From Allomeiothermus silvanus DSM 9946 (lineage in GTDB: Bacteria; Deinococcota; Deinococci; Deinococcales; Thermaceae): a stretch of DNA of 64,000 nucleotides. The notes beneath the pieces were generated by a model, which did not search any database, was not told the origin of the DNA, and saw only the letters and a list, made by a program, of their open reading frames with translations. A program made the translations under genes and the position numbers. This document shows, in pieces, positions 13,970 through 41,806 of this stretch (within the stretch, counting starts at the first letter, position 1; each line of letters begins with the position of its first letter). Where the stretch lies: the NCBI RefSeq assembly GCF_000092125.1, contig NC_014212.1, positions 1,446,001 through 1,510,000 of the forward strand, written 5' to 3'.

Positions 13970-14053
13970 TATCCACCCGTCCCCTGCGCTGTTTGAAATT
14001 GATGTGTTCTTCGTTTTGGGGCCCACCCGCGGCGTATGTTTGCAGCGATAGCC

Positions 14054-14308
14054 GGGTAGCGCTGTCCAGGGGGACACATGCAGCATATAGGCTTTTGTTT
14101 GCCCTAAAGCGGAACGCTACCCCTGAGTACCGGCGCCAGCCCAGGTTACCGGCAAGCACTAGGCCCGCTAGGGCCGGGCTTTGCCCGTGCGAGCCGGTAT
14201 GGCCACCCCGCCTATCGGCGGCGAAAGAAACGTCTACGGCCACCCCCTTGGGGGCCGATGGCCCTTCACTGCCCTGCGGTCGGTGAAACCAACCTCTCGG
14301 GTGGGGTT
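14054..14308 (+). ncRNA. Candidate structured RNA or 5' leader upstream of the CAP-domain gene
   Basis: The 373-bp gap between the M16 peptidase and the CAP-domain gene has no plausible ORF but an unusual density of perfect stems. GGGTAGCG (14054-14061) pairs with CGCTACCC (14115-14122) and encloses TGTCC/GGACA (14063-14076). A complete three-way junction spans 14147-14199: TACCGGC/GCCGGTA outside, GCAC/GTGC next, then two hairpins GGCCC-gcta-GGGCC and GGGC-ttt-GCCC. Then come CCGCC-tatc-GGCGG (14208-14221), GGCCA/TGGCC around CCCCC-tt-GGGGG (14238-14263), TCAC/GTGA (14266-14286) and AACC/GGTT (14287-14308). It ends 34 bases before the ATG, on the same strand. No known RNA family matched. The strand is chosen from context only. 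Confidence 0.4.
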
Positions 14309-14342
14309 CATATCACAGGTGGTGGTCTGCTAACACCCGAGA

Positions 14343-15305
14343 ATGAAAAATATGCGGTGGCTCTGGATGCTTGTACTGGTGGTGTCTTTTGCCTCGGCCC
14401 AGACCGCTCCTACAGCACTGGAGCTGGAGGTGTTGGCGCGTACTAACCAAGAGCGCGTGGCTCGCGGATTGAGCCCCTTAGAGTGGGACAATCTGGCCGC
14501 CCAGGTGGCGCGCGCCCACGCCCTGGACATGCTGCGGCGGGGCTATTTTGCTCACATCAACCCCGAAGGGGAAAGCCCTGCGGATCGGTTGCATAAGGCG
14601 GGCGGGGTGGAAGTGGAAGTAGGGGAGAATCTGGCTTTTTATGAGAACTACCCCGATTCCAGGATCCCCGCCGAGGCCGTCCGGGGCTGGATGAATAGCC
14701 CCCACCACCGCGACAACCTGCTCAAGCCCAGTTACACCCACCTGGGGGTGGGCTTGGTGCGGCAGGGCAACCGGGTGATGGTGGTGCAGAACTTTCTGGC
14801 CCGCCCCTTCGCGCTAAGCTTTACCCGCCAGGCGTCGTGGGTAGAGGAAAATACCCTCTCGCTGCGGGGCGAGGTGCCCGCTTCGGTGGGGGTGTTCATA
14901 GAGGGCAATTTGTACGCCGAACTCGGCCATCGCTTCGACACTACGCTCGAACTTCCTCCGGGGGCTAGCCCGCGCTTTGGATGGCGCAATGGATCGCGCT
15001 GGCTGGAAGTTTCACCGGGGCAGTCGGGCTTTGGCTTCGAGGTTCGCCAGGAGAAGGCCTTGGTCCCCGGTTGCCAGCTACAGTTGGTGCTGCCCGCAGG
15101 CCGATACGCCCTGGCCGTGGGGAAAGAGCCTCGCTTTTGGCGTACGGTGGATGGGCCAGCTACGCTCGAGCTTCCTTTGCCCGCTAGCTTGGAGTTGCTC
15201 TGGGTAGGCCGCCGGCAAGGGGATTGGATCGACTACGCTTTTCGTATCCCCTTGGACCTAGAGACGAGCGCGACCACCCCTCATACCTACGCCACGGCAC
15301 CGTGA
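14343..15305 (+). CDS. Secreted CAP (SCP/PR-1) domain protein
   Basis: A 320-residue exported protein. Residues 1-20 (KNMRWLWMLVLVVSFASA) form a signal peptide ending at an AQ cleavage site. Residues 27-150 form a CAP domain: TNQERVARGLSPLEWDNLAAQ, then HALDMLRRGYFAHINPEGESPADR, ENLAFYEN and the HHRDNLL plus HLGVGLV signature. Histidine and glutamate of the CAP cavity are retained. The remaining 150 residues form a beta-rich region without a recognised domain. The biological role of bacterial CAP proteins is mostly unknown. The unusually structured upstream region may be its leader. Confidence 0.85.
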   Translation: MKNMRWLWMLVLVVSFASAQTAPTALELEVLARTNQERVARGLSPLEWDNLAAQVARAHALDMLRRGYFAHINPEGESPADRLHKAGGVEVEVGENLAFYENYPDSRIPAEAVRGWMNSPHHRDNLLKPSYTHLGVGLVRQGNRVMVVQNFLARPFALSFTRQASWVEENTLSLRGEVPASVGVFIEGNLYAELGHRFDTTLELPPGASPRFGWRNGSRWLEVSPGQSGFGFEVRQEKALVPGCQLQLVLPAGRYALAVGKEPRFWRTVDGPATLELPLPASLELLWVGRRQGDWIDYAFRIPLDLETSATTPHTYATAP

Positions 15306-15838
15306 GCGGCGAAAAGCGGATAGCCGGGCCCCCCGCAGTAGGGCGTAGAATCCTCGGGTGGACGCAAGAGCCCTGATCGCTACGCTGCTCACCCTGATCC
15401 CCTGGGCCTCGGCCTTTCCCGGTATCCGTGCCGGGCTCGAGGGTTATTCTCCTGGCCACCTCACCCTGTTGCGCTTTTTTGTGGCCTCGATCGTGCTCGT
15501 GGTGTATGCCCTGGTTGTGCGGATGCCCCTGCCCGAGCGCAAAGACTGGCCCGCCATCTTCGGCTTGAGCCTGCTGGGAATATTCCTCTACCACACCGCG
15601 CTCAACTACGGCGAGGTCACCGTAGCCTCTGGCCCGGCGGCCTTGCTCATCGCTTGTGGCCCGGTGTTCACCGCGCTCTTCTCTTCCCGGTTCGCCAAAG
15701 AGCGCATCTCCCCCTGGGGCTGGCTAGGGATCGCTATCGCTTTTACCGGGGTCGCCCTGATCGCGCTGGGGCAGGAAGGACGCCTGGAGTTTGCTCCAGG
15801 GGCGCTGCTGATCTTACTGGCCGCGCTTTCCACCTCGA

Positions 15839-16930
15839 TAGGACTTACGCAGTTGGCTGAAGGATGTGGAGGGGATGGGCGAGATAACTTCGTATTGCCT
15901 CGCGAACAATGGACGCCTTGGCCTCGTACCAGCTCACCCCCCTGCGCAGCCGGTAGACCTCCAGCCGGAGGAAGGCCCGCAAAGCCAGGAGGAGGTGCCG
16001 CAGGATGGAGACCGCCTTCCTCACCTGGGCCCGCTCCACCCCACAGCACTGCTTGAGCCCCCGATGGTACACTTCGATCCCCCATCCTTGCCGCTCTAAC
16101 TCCGCCCGCTTCTCTTCGCTCATCCCCAGATGGTTCGTGGCCCAGTACTCCGCCTCCCCGTCCTTGGAGAGCGTTCGGAACACCCTCACGAACCCAAAAC
16201 CCCGAAGATGAACCACCCTCCCCTCCCCAGGGATTTCCACCTCACGGATGGGTACATTTCCCTTCCCCTCCGGGTTGACCAGGCGGTTGCCCTTCAGCCG
16301 CGTCAGAAACCGCCAGCCAAAGCTGACTATGGCCTTGAGGTTCTCCAAGCTGGCATACCAGCTGTCCATCAGGACATATTCCGGCTGAAACCCCCGCTCC
16401 TTCGCTTTCTGGAGCATGGTCTGAAAGTGGTCGTTTTTGCTCTTCCCATCCTGGGGCTTGTCGTAGACCCGAAAGTCGCAGGGGATCAGGGCCTGCCCCT
16501 CCGTCCACAGCAGGGTCATGAGGGCGATGCCCCTAACCACCCTTTGGTGTTTGCCGCTCCAGTGGTAACTCACCAGATCCATGTCCCGAGCGTAGGGCTT
16601 ATCCAGGGTGGTGTCGTCCAGGATCAGCAGCCCCTCCCTGAGCTTCACGAAGGCCTTGGCCTCCTGCCACAGCGCCGCCGTGTCGGGCGGCTGTCTTTGC
16701 AGCAGGCGGGTAAAGGCATCATGGGCGGGAGGGCTCTTCTCCTTTGGACTACAGCGAGCGGCCTCGGTACAGGTGAAGACCCGCTGAGCGGCGATGAGAA
16801 AGTGGATGTAGTCCAGGTCATCGCACTTCGGTGGGTTCATGGGCATCACCCCCTTTGGAGAAGCTTGGCTAAGCACTCTCCTCCTAGCACACAGAAGAAT
16901 GTCCAGTCAACTGCAACTGCGTAACTCCTA
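15839..16930 (-). mobile_element. IS701-like insertion sequence, copy A (1092 bp)
   Basis: The ends TAGGACTTACGCAGTTG and, on the other side, TAGGAGTTACGCAGTTG form imperfect terminal inverted repeats. The element is flanked by a CTCGA duplication (15834-15838 and 16931-16935) in the EamA gene. Two further copies of the same 1092-bp length occur at 47568-48659 and 49787-50878. Their transposases are identical over their whole length, indicating recent activity. It contains no CTCGAG palindrome, unlike the host DNA around it. Confidence 0.95.
15845..16840 (-). CDS. DDE transposase of the IS701-like element, copy A
   Basis: RNase H-fold transposase of the IS4/IS701 superfamily (331 residues). 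The catalytic triad is visible as D in [13 protein letters not shown] in [10 protein letters not shown], and E in [12 protein letters not shown], with the DSWYAS form typical of this group. ATG 16840 has AGGGGGTG six bases upstream; an in-frame start 12 codons earlier (16876) lacks one. The stop is close to the terminal repeat. The family name is by motif only; a database comparison would settle it. Confidence 0.9.
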
Positions 16931-17359
16931 CTCGATTTATTTCGTGTTCCAAAGACCGTTGCTAAGGAAATATAACCCGCTGCACTTCACCGCCTGTACC
17001 ATCTGGGCTGGGACTTTGCCGATGTTGATCTTTCTTCCTGGCTTTTGGCAGGAACTCCATACGGCGAAAGCCAGCGCTACCCTGAGCGTCATCTACTTGG
17101 GGGTGTTTCCGGGCGCGCTGGCTTACCTCACCTGGACCTACGCCCTCTCGAGGGCCCCGGCCAGCCAGGTGACCAGCTTTCTCTACGTCAACCCGGTGAT
17201 CGCCGCCGCCATCGCTTACTTTTGGTTAGGGGAGGTTCCTACCTCCTTGACCATAATTGGAGGGGCCATTGCCTTGGCCGGGGTGGTGGTGGTGAATACC
17301 TTGGGCAAGGTCTCCACTGCGCAAAGACACCCCCTCAAACAGGCGTAGAATAGCGGTGT

Positions 17360-40612: not shown

Positions 40613-41806
40613 ATGAGCTGGCTGCTTTGGGCCCTGTGGGTGGCTGTGCTCCCTTGGCTGTTACGCAGTGGGGCGGGCTCGAGGCTGGGCCATCCGGGAC
40701 CTGCTTGGCTGCGCTGGCTGGGCGGGGGTTGTTGGCTGGCTTTGGCGCTGGTCGGGGCGGTGTTATGGGTGGGCGGTTCGGAGCGTCTCTTGGCCGGTTC
40801 GCTAGCCTTTTCCGGGTTTCTCCTGGCCCTGTTGGCGCTGTGGGGGGGAGATCTGCTGTGGGCAGCCCGCTTCAAGCTGGGCTGGGTGGCTGCACTGGCT
40901 TTGTGGGTCGGCAGTGGGGCTACCCTCCTGCTGGGCTTGCCCCCTTCGAGCCTGGTGCTGGCGGGGCTGCTGGGGGTGTTGGGAGCGCAGGCTATCGGGT
41001 TGATGGGAAATCTGGAGGCTCGAGCCCGCTTGCTTTGGCTGTGGCAGCAGACCCGTGGGTGGATGGTGCTGCTGGCCCTTTCGGTGTTGATCCGCATCCC
41101 GGTTCCCCTGTGGCCCGAAGGGTTTGCGCTGGTGAGCTTGATGCAGATGAGCCTGATCGGGTTGGCAGCGATCTTGTGGGGTTGGGAAAAGGTGGGGCCG
41201 CGCATCTTGCTGATGGGCGGGGTGGCCTTTTCTCTGGGGCTGGGGGTAGAACTGCTAGGCAGCCGCAGCGGCTTTCCCTTTGGCCACTACAGCTACGCCT
41301 CTGCGCCGCCACCCACCTTGCTGGGCGTCCCGCTCATCGTCCCGCTAGGGTGGTTTGGCATGGTGCTGGCGGCGCATGGGTTGGCTTTGGGGCGCCCTTG
41401 GCTCACGGGTCTGCTGGTAGTGGCTTGGGACCTGGGCCTCGAGGCCCTGATGCCATCCCAGGGGTACTGGGTCTGGCAGGACCCCCATCCGCTGTGGTAC
41501 GGGGCACCGCTGCAGAATTACCTTGCGTGGTTTGCCATGGGAGCCACCTTGTCCTGGATTTACCTGAGGCTTGGCCAAGGGCTGCTGCTAGGCGGTGGAC
41601 TGGCCTGGGCTTACCGCCTCGAGGGGCTTTTCCTGCCTATGGGCTTGGCGCTTTTTGGGCTTTGGCCCGCTGCTTTAATGTGTGGGGTTGCCATGAACGC
41701 TCTGGCCTGGTGGGGGGTACGCAGTGAAGGGCCTCCAGGCCCCCGGCGATGCCGGTACTCATCGGCTGCCTGGTTCTCGCGTGATAGTCGGGAGGTTGCC
41801 CCTTGA
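40613..41806 (+). CDS. cruF: Carotenoid 1,2-hydratase of the CruF family
   Basis: Integral membrane protein (397 residues, about ten hydrophobic segments) of the CruF/COG2324 family, which hydrates the psi end of gamma-carotene to a 1'-hydroxy group. The family signature FPFGHYSY, the acidic WDLGLEALMPSQGYWVW and the NYLAWF motif are present. It matches the Deinococcus enzyme class. The stop overlaps the TTG start of the acyltransferase (TTGA), showing tight coupling. The N-terminal first 60 residues are very Trp/Leu rich. Confidence 0.9.
   Translation: MSWLLWALWVAVLPWLLRSGAGSRLGHPGPAWLRWLGGGCWLALALVGAVLWVGGSERLLAGSLAFSGFLLALLALWGGDLLWAARFKLGWVAALALWVGSGATLLLGLPPSSLVLAGLLGVLGAQAIGLMGNLEARARLLWLWQQTRGWMVLLALSVLIRIPVPLWPEGFALVSLMQMSLIGLAAILWGWEKVGPRILLMGGVAFSLGLGVELLGSRSGFPFGHYSYASAPPPTLLGVPLIVPLGWFGMVLAAHGLALGRPWLTGLLVVAWDLGLEALMPSQGYWVWQDPHPLWYGAPLQNYLAWFAMGATLSWIYLRLGQGLLLGGGLAWAYRLEGLFLPMGLALFGLWPAALMCGVAMNALAWWGVRSEGPPGPRRCRYSSAAWFSRDSREVAP

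Follow-up and report, generated by a model that had tools for sequence, protein, structure and literature searches.

The spacer that separates the M16 peptidase and CAP genes of Allomeiothermus silvanus DSM 9946 is occupied, at a probability that we put near 0.9, by a composite of mobile, non-autonomous palindromic elements. The units of which it is built insert into each other and, in frame, into protein genes. All positions are those of the window, the 64,000-nucleotide stretch of NC_014212.1 (1,446,001 to 1,510,000) that was analyzed. The genome to which the window belongs, called its own genome below, comprises 3,721,669 bp in all, with a chromosome of 3,249,394 bp.

Anatomy of the composite element

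A preliminary description had placed a densely folded, RNA-like feature at 14054-14308. Stems do lie there; the limits did not hold, since the element is larger and runs from about 13993 to 14315. BLASTN of positions 13970-14345 returned 36 matching pieces in the own genome (including its own place), and homologous copies of the composite were found at about 24 other places in that genome. The anatomy was derived by comparing copies, using the stretches around the matches. Covariance models were designated R1 (family B), R2 (family C) and R3 (family D).

13993-14315, + strand: whole composite, made up of the outer element A (MITE-like) and the guests nested in it; approximate left edge, right end ...GGGGTTCATATCA
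14018-14123, + strand: left module of A, GGGGCCCACCCGCGG..., with hairpin GGGTAGCG/CGCTACCC; 26 matches in the own genome, including the window copy
14124-14141, + strand: left part of B (TGAGTACCGGCGCCAGCC), a 39-bp double hairpin split here by C
14142-14249, + strand: C, a 42-bp double hairpin interrupted by D and E; end-to-end match to R2 (E-value 7e-11)
14156-14192, + strand: D (36/37 bp), in the loop of the first hairpin of C; match to R3 (E-value 1e-16)
14205-14234, + strand: E (30 bp, ACCCCGCCTATCGGCGGCGAAAGAAACGTC), in the second hairpin of C between GGCC and TAC; repeats apart from C
14250-14270, + strand: right part of B (GGGGGCCGATGGCCCTTCACT), identical to free B units; partial match to R1 at 14242-14270
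14271-14315, + strand: right module of A (GCCCTGCGGTCGGTGAAACCAACCTCTCGGGTGGGGTTCATATCA), with ends common to other A copies
41723-41761, - strand: second B, uninterrupted; match to R1 (E-value 2.1e-11), with an open frame through the unit

From first to last base, guests included, the B of the composite occupies 147 bp. The C unit has the layout CAGGT-TACCGGC-AAA-GCCGGTA-TGGCC-TAC-GGCCA-CCCCCTT, and its own pieces lie at 14142-14155, 14193-14204 and 14235-14249. The layout of D is GCAC-TA-[GGCCC GCTA GGGCC]-[GGGC TTT GCCC]-GTGC-GA, and D is the three-way junction of the preliminary description. R2 was built without the window copy. R3 was built from seven sequences, the window copy among them, and independent support for D therefore comes from the copies elsewhere. 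The uninterrupted B at 41723-41761 (- strand) falls in frame within an open reading frame for a membrane protein (40613-41806, 397 aa), close to its 3' end.

Stems, folding energy and covariance models of known RNAs

The dense, ordered stems that had been read from the letters of the window are present at every position given for them, and the three-way junction lies exactly at 14147-14199. The principal stems are:

14147-14153 / 14193-14199: outer stem of the junction, 7 bp, TACCGGC/GCCGGTA
14156-14159 / 14187-14190: second stem of the junction, 4 bp, GCAC/GTGC
within the junction: inner hairpins GGCCC/GGGCC and GGGC/GCCC
14054-14061 / 14115-14122: stem GGGTAGCG/CGCTACCC, the hairpin of the left module of A

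Folding energies were compared with those of dinucleotide shuffles. The + strand gave z = -1.63, with 14 of 200 shuffles equally stable, and the - strand gave z = -2.22 (5 of 200). Folding energy by itself is thus weak evidence for a structured RNA. Note that the fold of the - strand is no weaker than that of the + strand, as is expected of palindromic DNA. When Rfam covariance models were run against the region, no family matched, even at E ≤ 1, which bears out the earlier comparison with known RNA motifs, in which no match was seen.

Compensatory changes in the stems

Cells with double changes numbered 34 in B against 13.9 in shuffled alignments (96.4% paired), and 35 in C against 9.2 (99.3% paired, with double changes at six pairs). 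Because related sequences can exceed shuffles, the argument for covariation is carried by the slid controls and by clean swaps of whole stems (GGGCC/GGCCC, GTCGC/GCGAC and GCCGC/GCGGC). Stem 2 of B and the pair of stems in C show compensatory changes well above shuffled and slid controls; stem 1 of B is nearly invariant and hence uninformative on covariation. The description of the stems as those of a folded RNA accordingly stood in part: two repeat families show compensatory changes, and the fold of the + strand hardly beats its shuffles. What is unusual about the region is repetition, its stems being those of repeat families.

Genes on either side and comparison with relatives

The spacer in the window measures 373 bp, with the M16 peptidase gene upstream and the CAP gene downstream. 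In G001, a sister genome of the same genus, the gene pair is syntenic, the coding sequence on either side aligns at 85-89%, and the spacer is only about 40-60 bp long and lacks the composite element. In G004 the two genes almost touch. Since the syntenic spacer is short in G001 and the genes nearly abut in G004, the 373-bp spacer of the window holds an insertion (about 13993-14315). The composite was found neither 5' of the CAP orthologue in G001 nor 5' of the homologues in other genera.

A small RNA, or a cis-acting structured leader or riboswitch controlling CAP, would account for nested stems that lie just 5' of the start codon of CAP, on that gene's strand, and for the covariation within the B and C families. 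We consider it very improbable. Copies of the element's sequences lie at numerous unrelated sites, on both strands and within genes; the element is missing from the closest relative despite the conserved gene pair, and from the homologues in other genera; the fold reaches a z of only -1.6; Rfam gives no match; and no promoter or terminator pattern sought at the composite site exceeded chance. In view of the first two of these results, the dedicated folded RNA of the CAP gene that had been proposed is not supported. Under the reading of the region as a mobile composite, an effect of the element on the mRNA at the window site is possible, and any effect on CAP expression would be incidental. As a caution for similar cases, dense nested intergenic stems, even covarying ones, can be repeats instead of regulatory RNA.

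Further downstream, an EamA transporter gene is in two halves (15358-15900 and 16839-17345, + strand), with a DDE transposase gene (15845-16876, - strand) between them. The transporter gene at 15358-17345 appears to be interrupted by an insertion sequence.

Repeat families, arrays and nesting

A is a dispersed MITE-like element, and B, C and D are separate double-hairpin families with fixed ends at many chromosomal locations. Copy numbers are lower bounds from a covariance-model search that scores a limited number of candidates. For B, R1 counted at least 79 units in the own genome and matched at least 17 of 50 Thermaceae genomes (at least 18 of 111 Deinococcota genomes); none was found by R1 in genus g5, whose genomes measure 2.0-2.4 Mb. 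A pattern for B gave 88 matches, against 4 for the reversed control pattern. C is present in at least 13 of the 50 Thermaceae genomes, with at least 59 copies in G019 and at least 24 in G006. The G006 copies mostly have identical flanks, and most are therefore carried within a larger repeat. D was found in at least 7 of the 111 genomes; G019 holds at least 49 copies, and G030 and G109, which belong to another (Truepera-like) family, hold at least six each, there often 38-39 bp long. C occurs intact, free of D and E, in other genomes, and the own genome has E without C at about a dozen further sites.

Head-to-tail tandem arrays have periods of 39 bp (B), 42 bp (C) and 36 bp (D, in G019). Other copies of A hold 0, 1, 2, 3, 4 or 5 tandem B units. 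At three loci (L021, L022 and L070) additional B units lie inside D, giving B in D in C in B. This nest lies additionally within A at L022 and, at least in its right part, at L021.

Three observations concern neighboring repeats and array lengths. E (14205-14234; also loci L134-L149) falls within a wider set of repeats sharing the motifs CGGCGGCGAAAGAAGCGTCT / CGGCGAAA, which occur in G001, G004, G021 and G023 as well. G041 carries a larger MITE, “F” (e.g. L209-L228), with B at one fixed place, ...CTTTTTGAATCCTAGAGCACACCCCTCCCT|B|GTCGGTCGGCGAAG...; R1 gave at least 110 B copies in this genome. At the loci read, F contains B in every case, so that B hitch-hikes there, and active amplification of B in G041 was rejected as a reading. 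Finally, one locus has a single 39-bp B in the own genome (L086, 3233-3271) and two B units (38 + 40 bp) in G015 (L011), a difference in array length between species.

Insertion sites and in-frame copies

Orthologues without B were found for six genes, encoding a BadF/BcrA-family kinase, HPPK, HutI, MutS2, a BatA/VWA protein and TruB. MutS2 and HutI were named from sequence: Pfam yielded no hit to the fragment of MutS2, and HutI matched amidohydrolase models only weakly. In all six genes exactly 39 bp are extra and in frame, and the flanks rejoin without target duplication. In TruB the insert encodes 13 residues around PVKGRQAPGDAGTQ and is shared by G001. The HutI insert is present in G002 and G006 and not in G001. 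PrkA has a longer B that contains C and E, and an HMA protein has a 42-bp B within its metal-binding GMHC..C (CxxC) motif.

Across the HutI region (L086, 553-591; L157, L158 and L166) the own genome is about 94% identical to G006 and G002, which belong to another genus, and 81% identical to its congener G001, which has no B insert. These values suggest gene transfer.

The motif Y-N-C-Y stands directly before B at 30 of 45 sites, against a local background of 8.8% (P about 2e-21); the list of sites was derived by pattern and includes a few dubious or weak matches, whose only effect would be to weaken the motif. B inserts precisely, mostly 3' of C-N-C-Y and with no target duplication, and its own 3' end, CACT, fits that motif. 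A test for a palindromic target of B was negative (fold P = 0.21, stem P = 0.06). Palindromes or hairpin loops are thus unsupported as the general target, and the insertions into C, D and some other sites would fit them.

Read from sequence, B has four open frames out of six. Single-copy B units are 39 bp long in 35 of 43 cases, and coding copies stay in frame (39 or 42 nt) in stop-free frames. Whole-codon unit lengths in three families could arise by chance about once in 27. Hairpin elements are bypassed in some yeast mitochondria, and the in-frame copies could likewise be tolerated by ribosomal or RNA-processing skipping instead of translation of 12-14 extra residues. The presence in housekeeping genes of small mobile hairpins, including that in the GMHC..C motif of the HMA protein, would agree with skipping; since bypassing would not need coding copies to hold the frame and be free of stops, as they do, we think this scarcely credible.

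Mobilization

We infer that the units move as folded single-stranded hairpin DNA, which a trans-acting enzyme of the IS200/IS605 or REP kind (HUH, Y1) would cut and join. In Y1 (HUH) single-strand transposition, the short target is chosen by a guide next to the hairpin (PMC6006769, PMC8266576), and a short guide of this sort may pick the targets of the Thermaceae units. B carries its own target motif at its end, so that new copies would land beside old ones; the fit of the CACT end to the motif thus offers an origin for the head-to-tail B arrays, which could also grow by replication slippage. Units of 12, 13 and 14 codons with most frames free of stops could then persist inside genes. The units are probably selfish.

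No mobilizing enzyme was found for the units. None of the flanks examined has a B, C or D unit beside a Y1 transposase gene, and a search with PF01797 gave no match in G019, the genome richest in C and D, nor in G109, which carries D. The intact IS605 copies of the own genome start with CTTATAGAAG and end with GTGTCAA (TCAA), unlike B, and on account of these different ends the resident IS605 was rejected as the source of B.

By analogy with these systems, the chances of a Y1/HUH route are in our judgment evenly balanced. Alternatively, the same mobile composite may have been moved by an IS110-type recombinase, by some other enzyme or by template switching at replication forks, for which the odds appear a little under even. 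G019 lacks PF01797 despite its at least 59 C and 49 D copies, G109 lacks it too, and no units adjoin Y1 genes, as would be expected of a different mover. The absence of target duplication, the subterminal hairpins and the direct tandem arrays, however, fit IS200/IS605/REP single-strand chemistry, as does insertion 3' of a short motif like the element's own 3' end (PMC6006769, PMC8266576), and a Y1 enzyme lost after the burst, or absent from a draft genome, would also explain the gap.

Comparison with known repeat systems

By analogy, B would behave like REP, RPE and BOX repeats. REPs are short dispersed palindromes of 20-40 bp with compensatory stems, clustering and some copies within ORFs, in which head-tail dimers are rare (PMC3733652). 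The REPs of Escherichia coli (REP/BIME) and Pseudomonas (REPIN) resemble B and C as short palindromes in many copies with compensatory stems. They differ in that each Thermaceae unit consists of two different abutting hairpins with fixed ends, that head-to-tail arrays predominate, and that there is no adjacent RAYT gene in the flanks fetched and no Y1 gene in G019 or G109. In alignments A1 (B), A4 (C) and A3 (D), no GTAG/GTGG or CGTC tag was present at the foot of the hairpins, and the 5' ends were invariant or nearly so: TGAGTA in B, CAGGT (CAGGTTA) in C and GCACTA in D. The text of the REP survey mentions no Thermus, Meiothermus, Deinococcus or Truepera (PMC3733652).

Relative to IS200/IS605 (Y1 HUH) elements, B is alike in lacking a target duplication, in its subterminal hairpins and in inserting 3' of a fixed short motif; it is unlike them in that no transposase with matching ends was found and the ends of the resident IS605 differ. 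The BOX elements of pneumococci have the structure boxA-boxB(n)-boxC, and the BOX, RUP and SPRITE families insert into one another (PMC3049150). Compared by description, the left module of A, the 0-5 repeats of B and the right module of A similarly form two end modules around a variable middle; unlike BOX, B, C and D are also found as free units within genes, and the nests are four to five levels deep. The small noncoding repeats (SNRs) of Deinococcus radiodurans, in the same phylum, are mosaic dispersed repeats (PMC1978522), which the composite in the window resembles by description.

Rickettsia palindromic elements (RPEs) measure about 150 bp and lie in frame in many protein genes (PMC10969869), and RPE-1 interrupts TruB in R. 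conorii (PMC3733652). B likewise inserts in frame into unrelated protein genes, TruB included; RPEs, in another phylum, are set apart by length (B 39, C 42 and D 36 bp). Rickettsia is the best known case of in-frame palindromic inserts, and the Thermaceae supply an independent, smaller and thermophile one. With units that can be synthesized as single oligonucleotides, the entry and persistence of such elements in housekeeping proteins becomes testable.

No description of these repeats was found in the literature searched (subscription papers not covered), nor was any account of Thermaceae in which tiny units of two hairpins, lengths of whole codons, head-to-tail arrays and deep nesting come together. 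Tentatively, and at somewhat unfavorable odds, double-hairpin mobile elements of 36-42 bp, in several families, may make up a system in the Thermaceae, with whole-codon lengths, in-frame insertion into genes, nesting at several levels and no target duplication; in one element-rich genome at least, their mover would not be a recognizable Y1 transposase. Each behavior has a precedent: REPs within genes, RPEs in frame, the modularity of BOX and the mosaics of SNRs.
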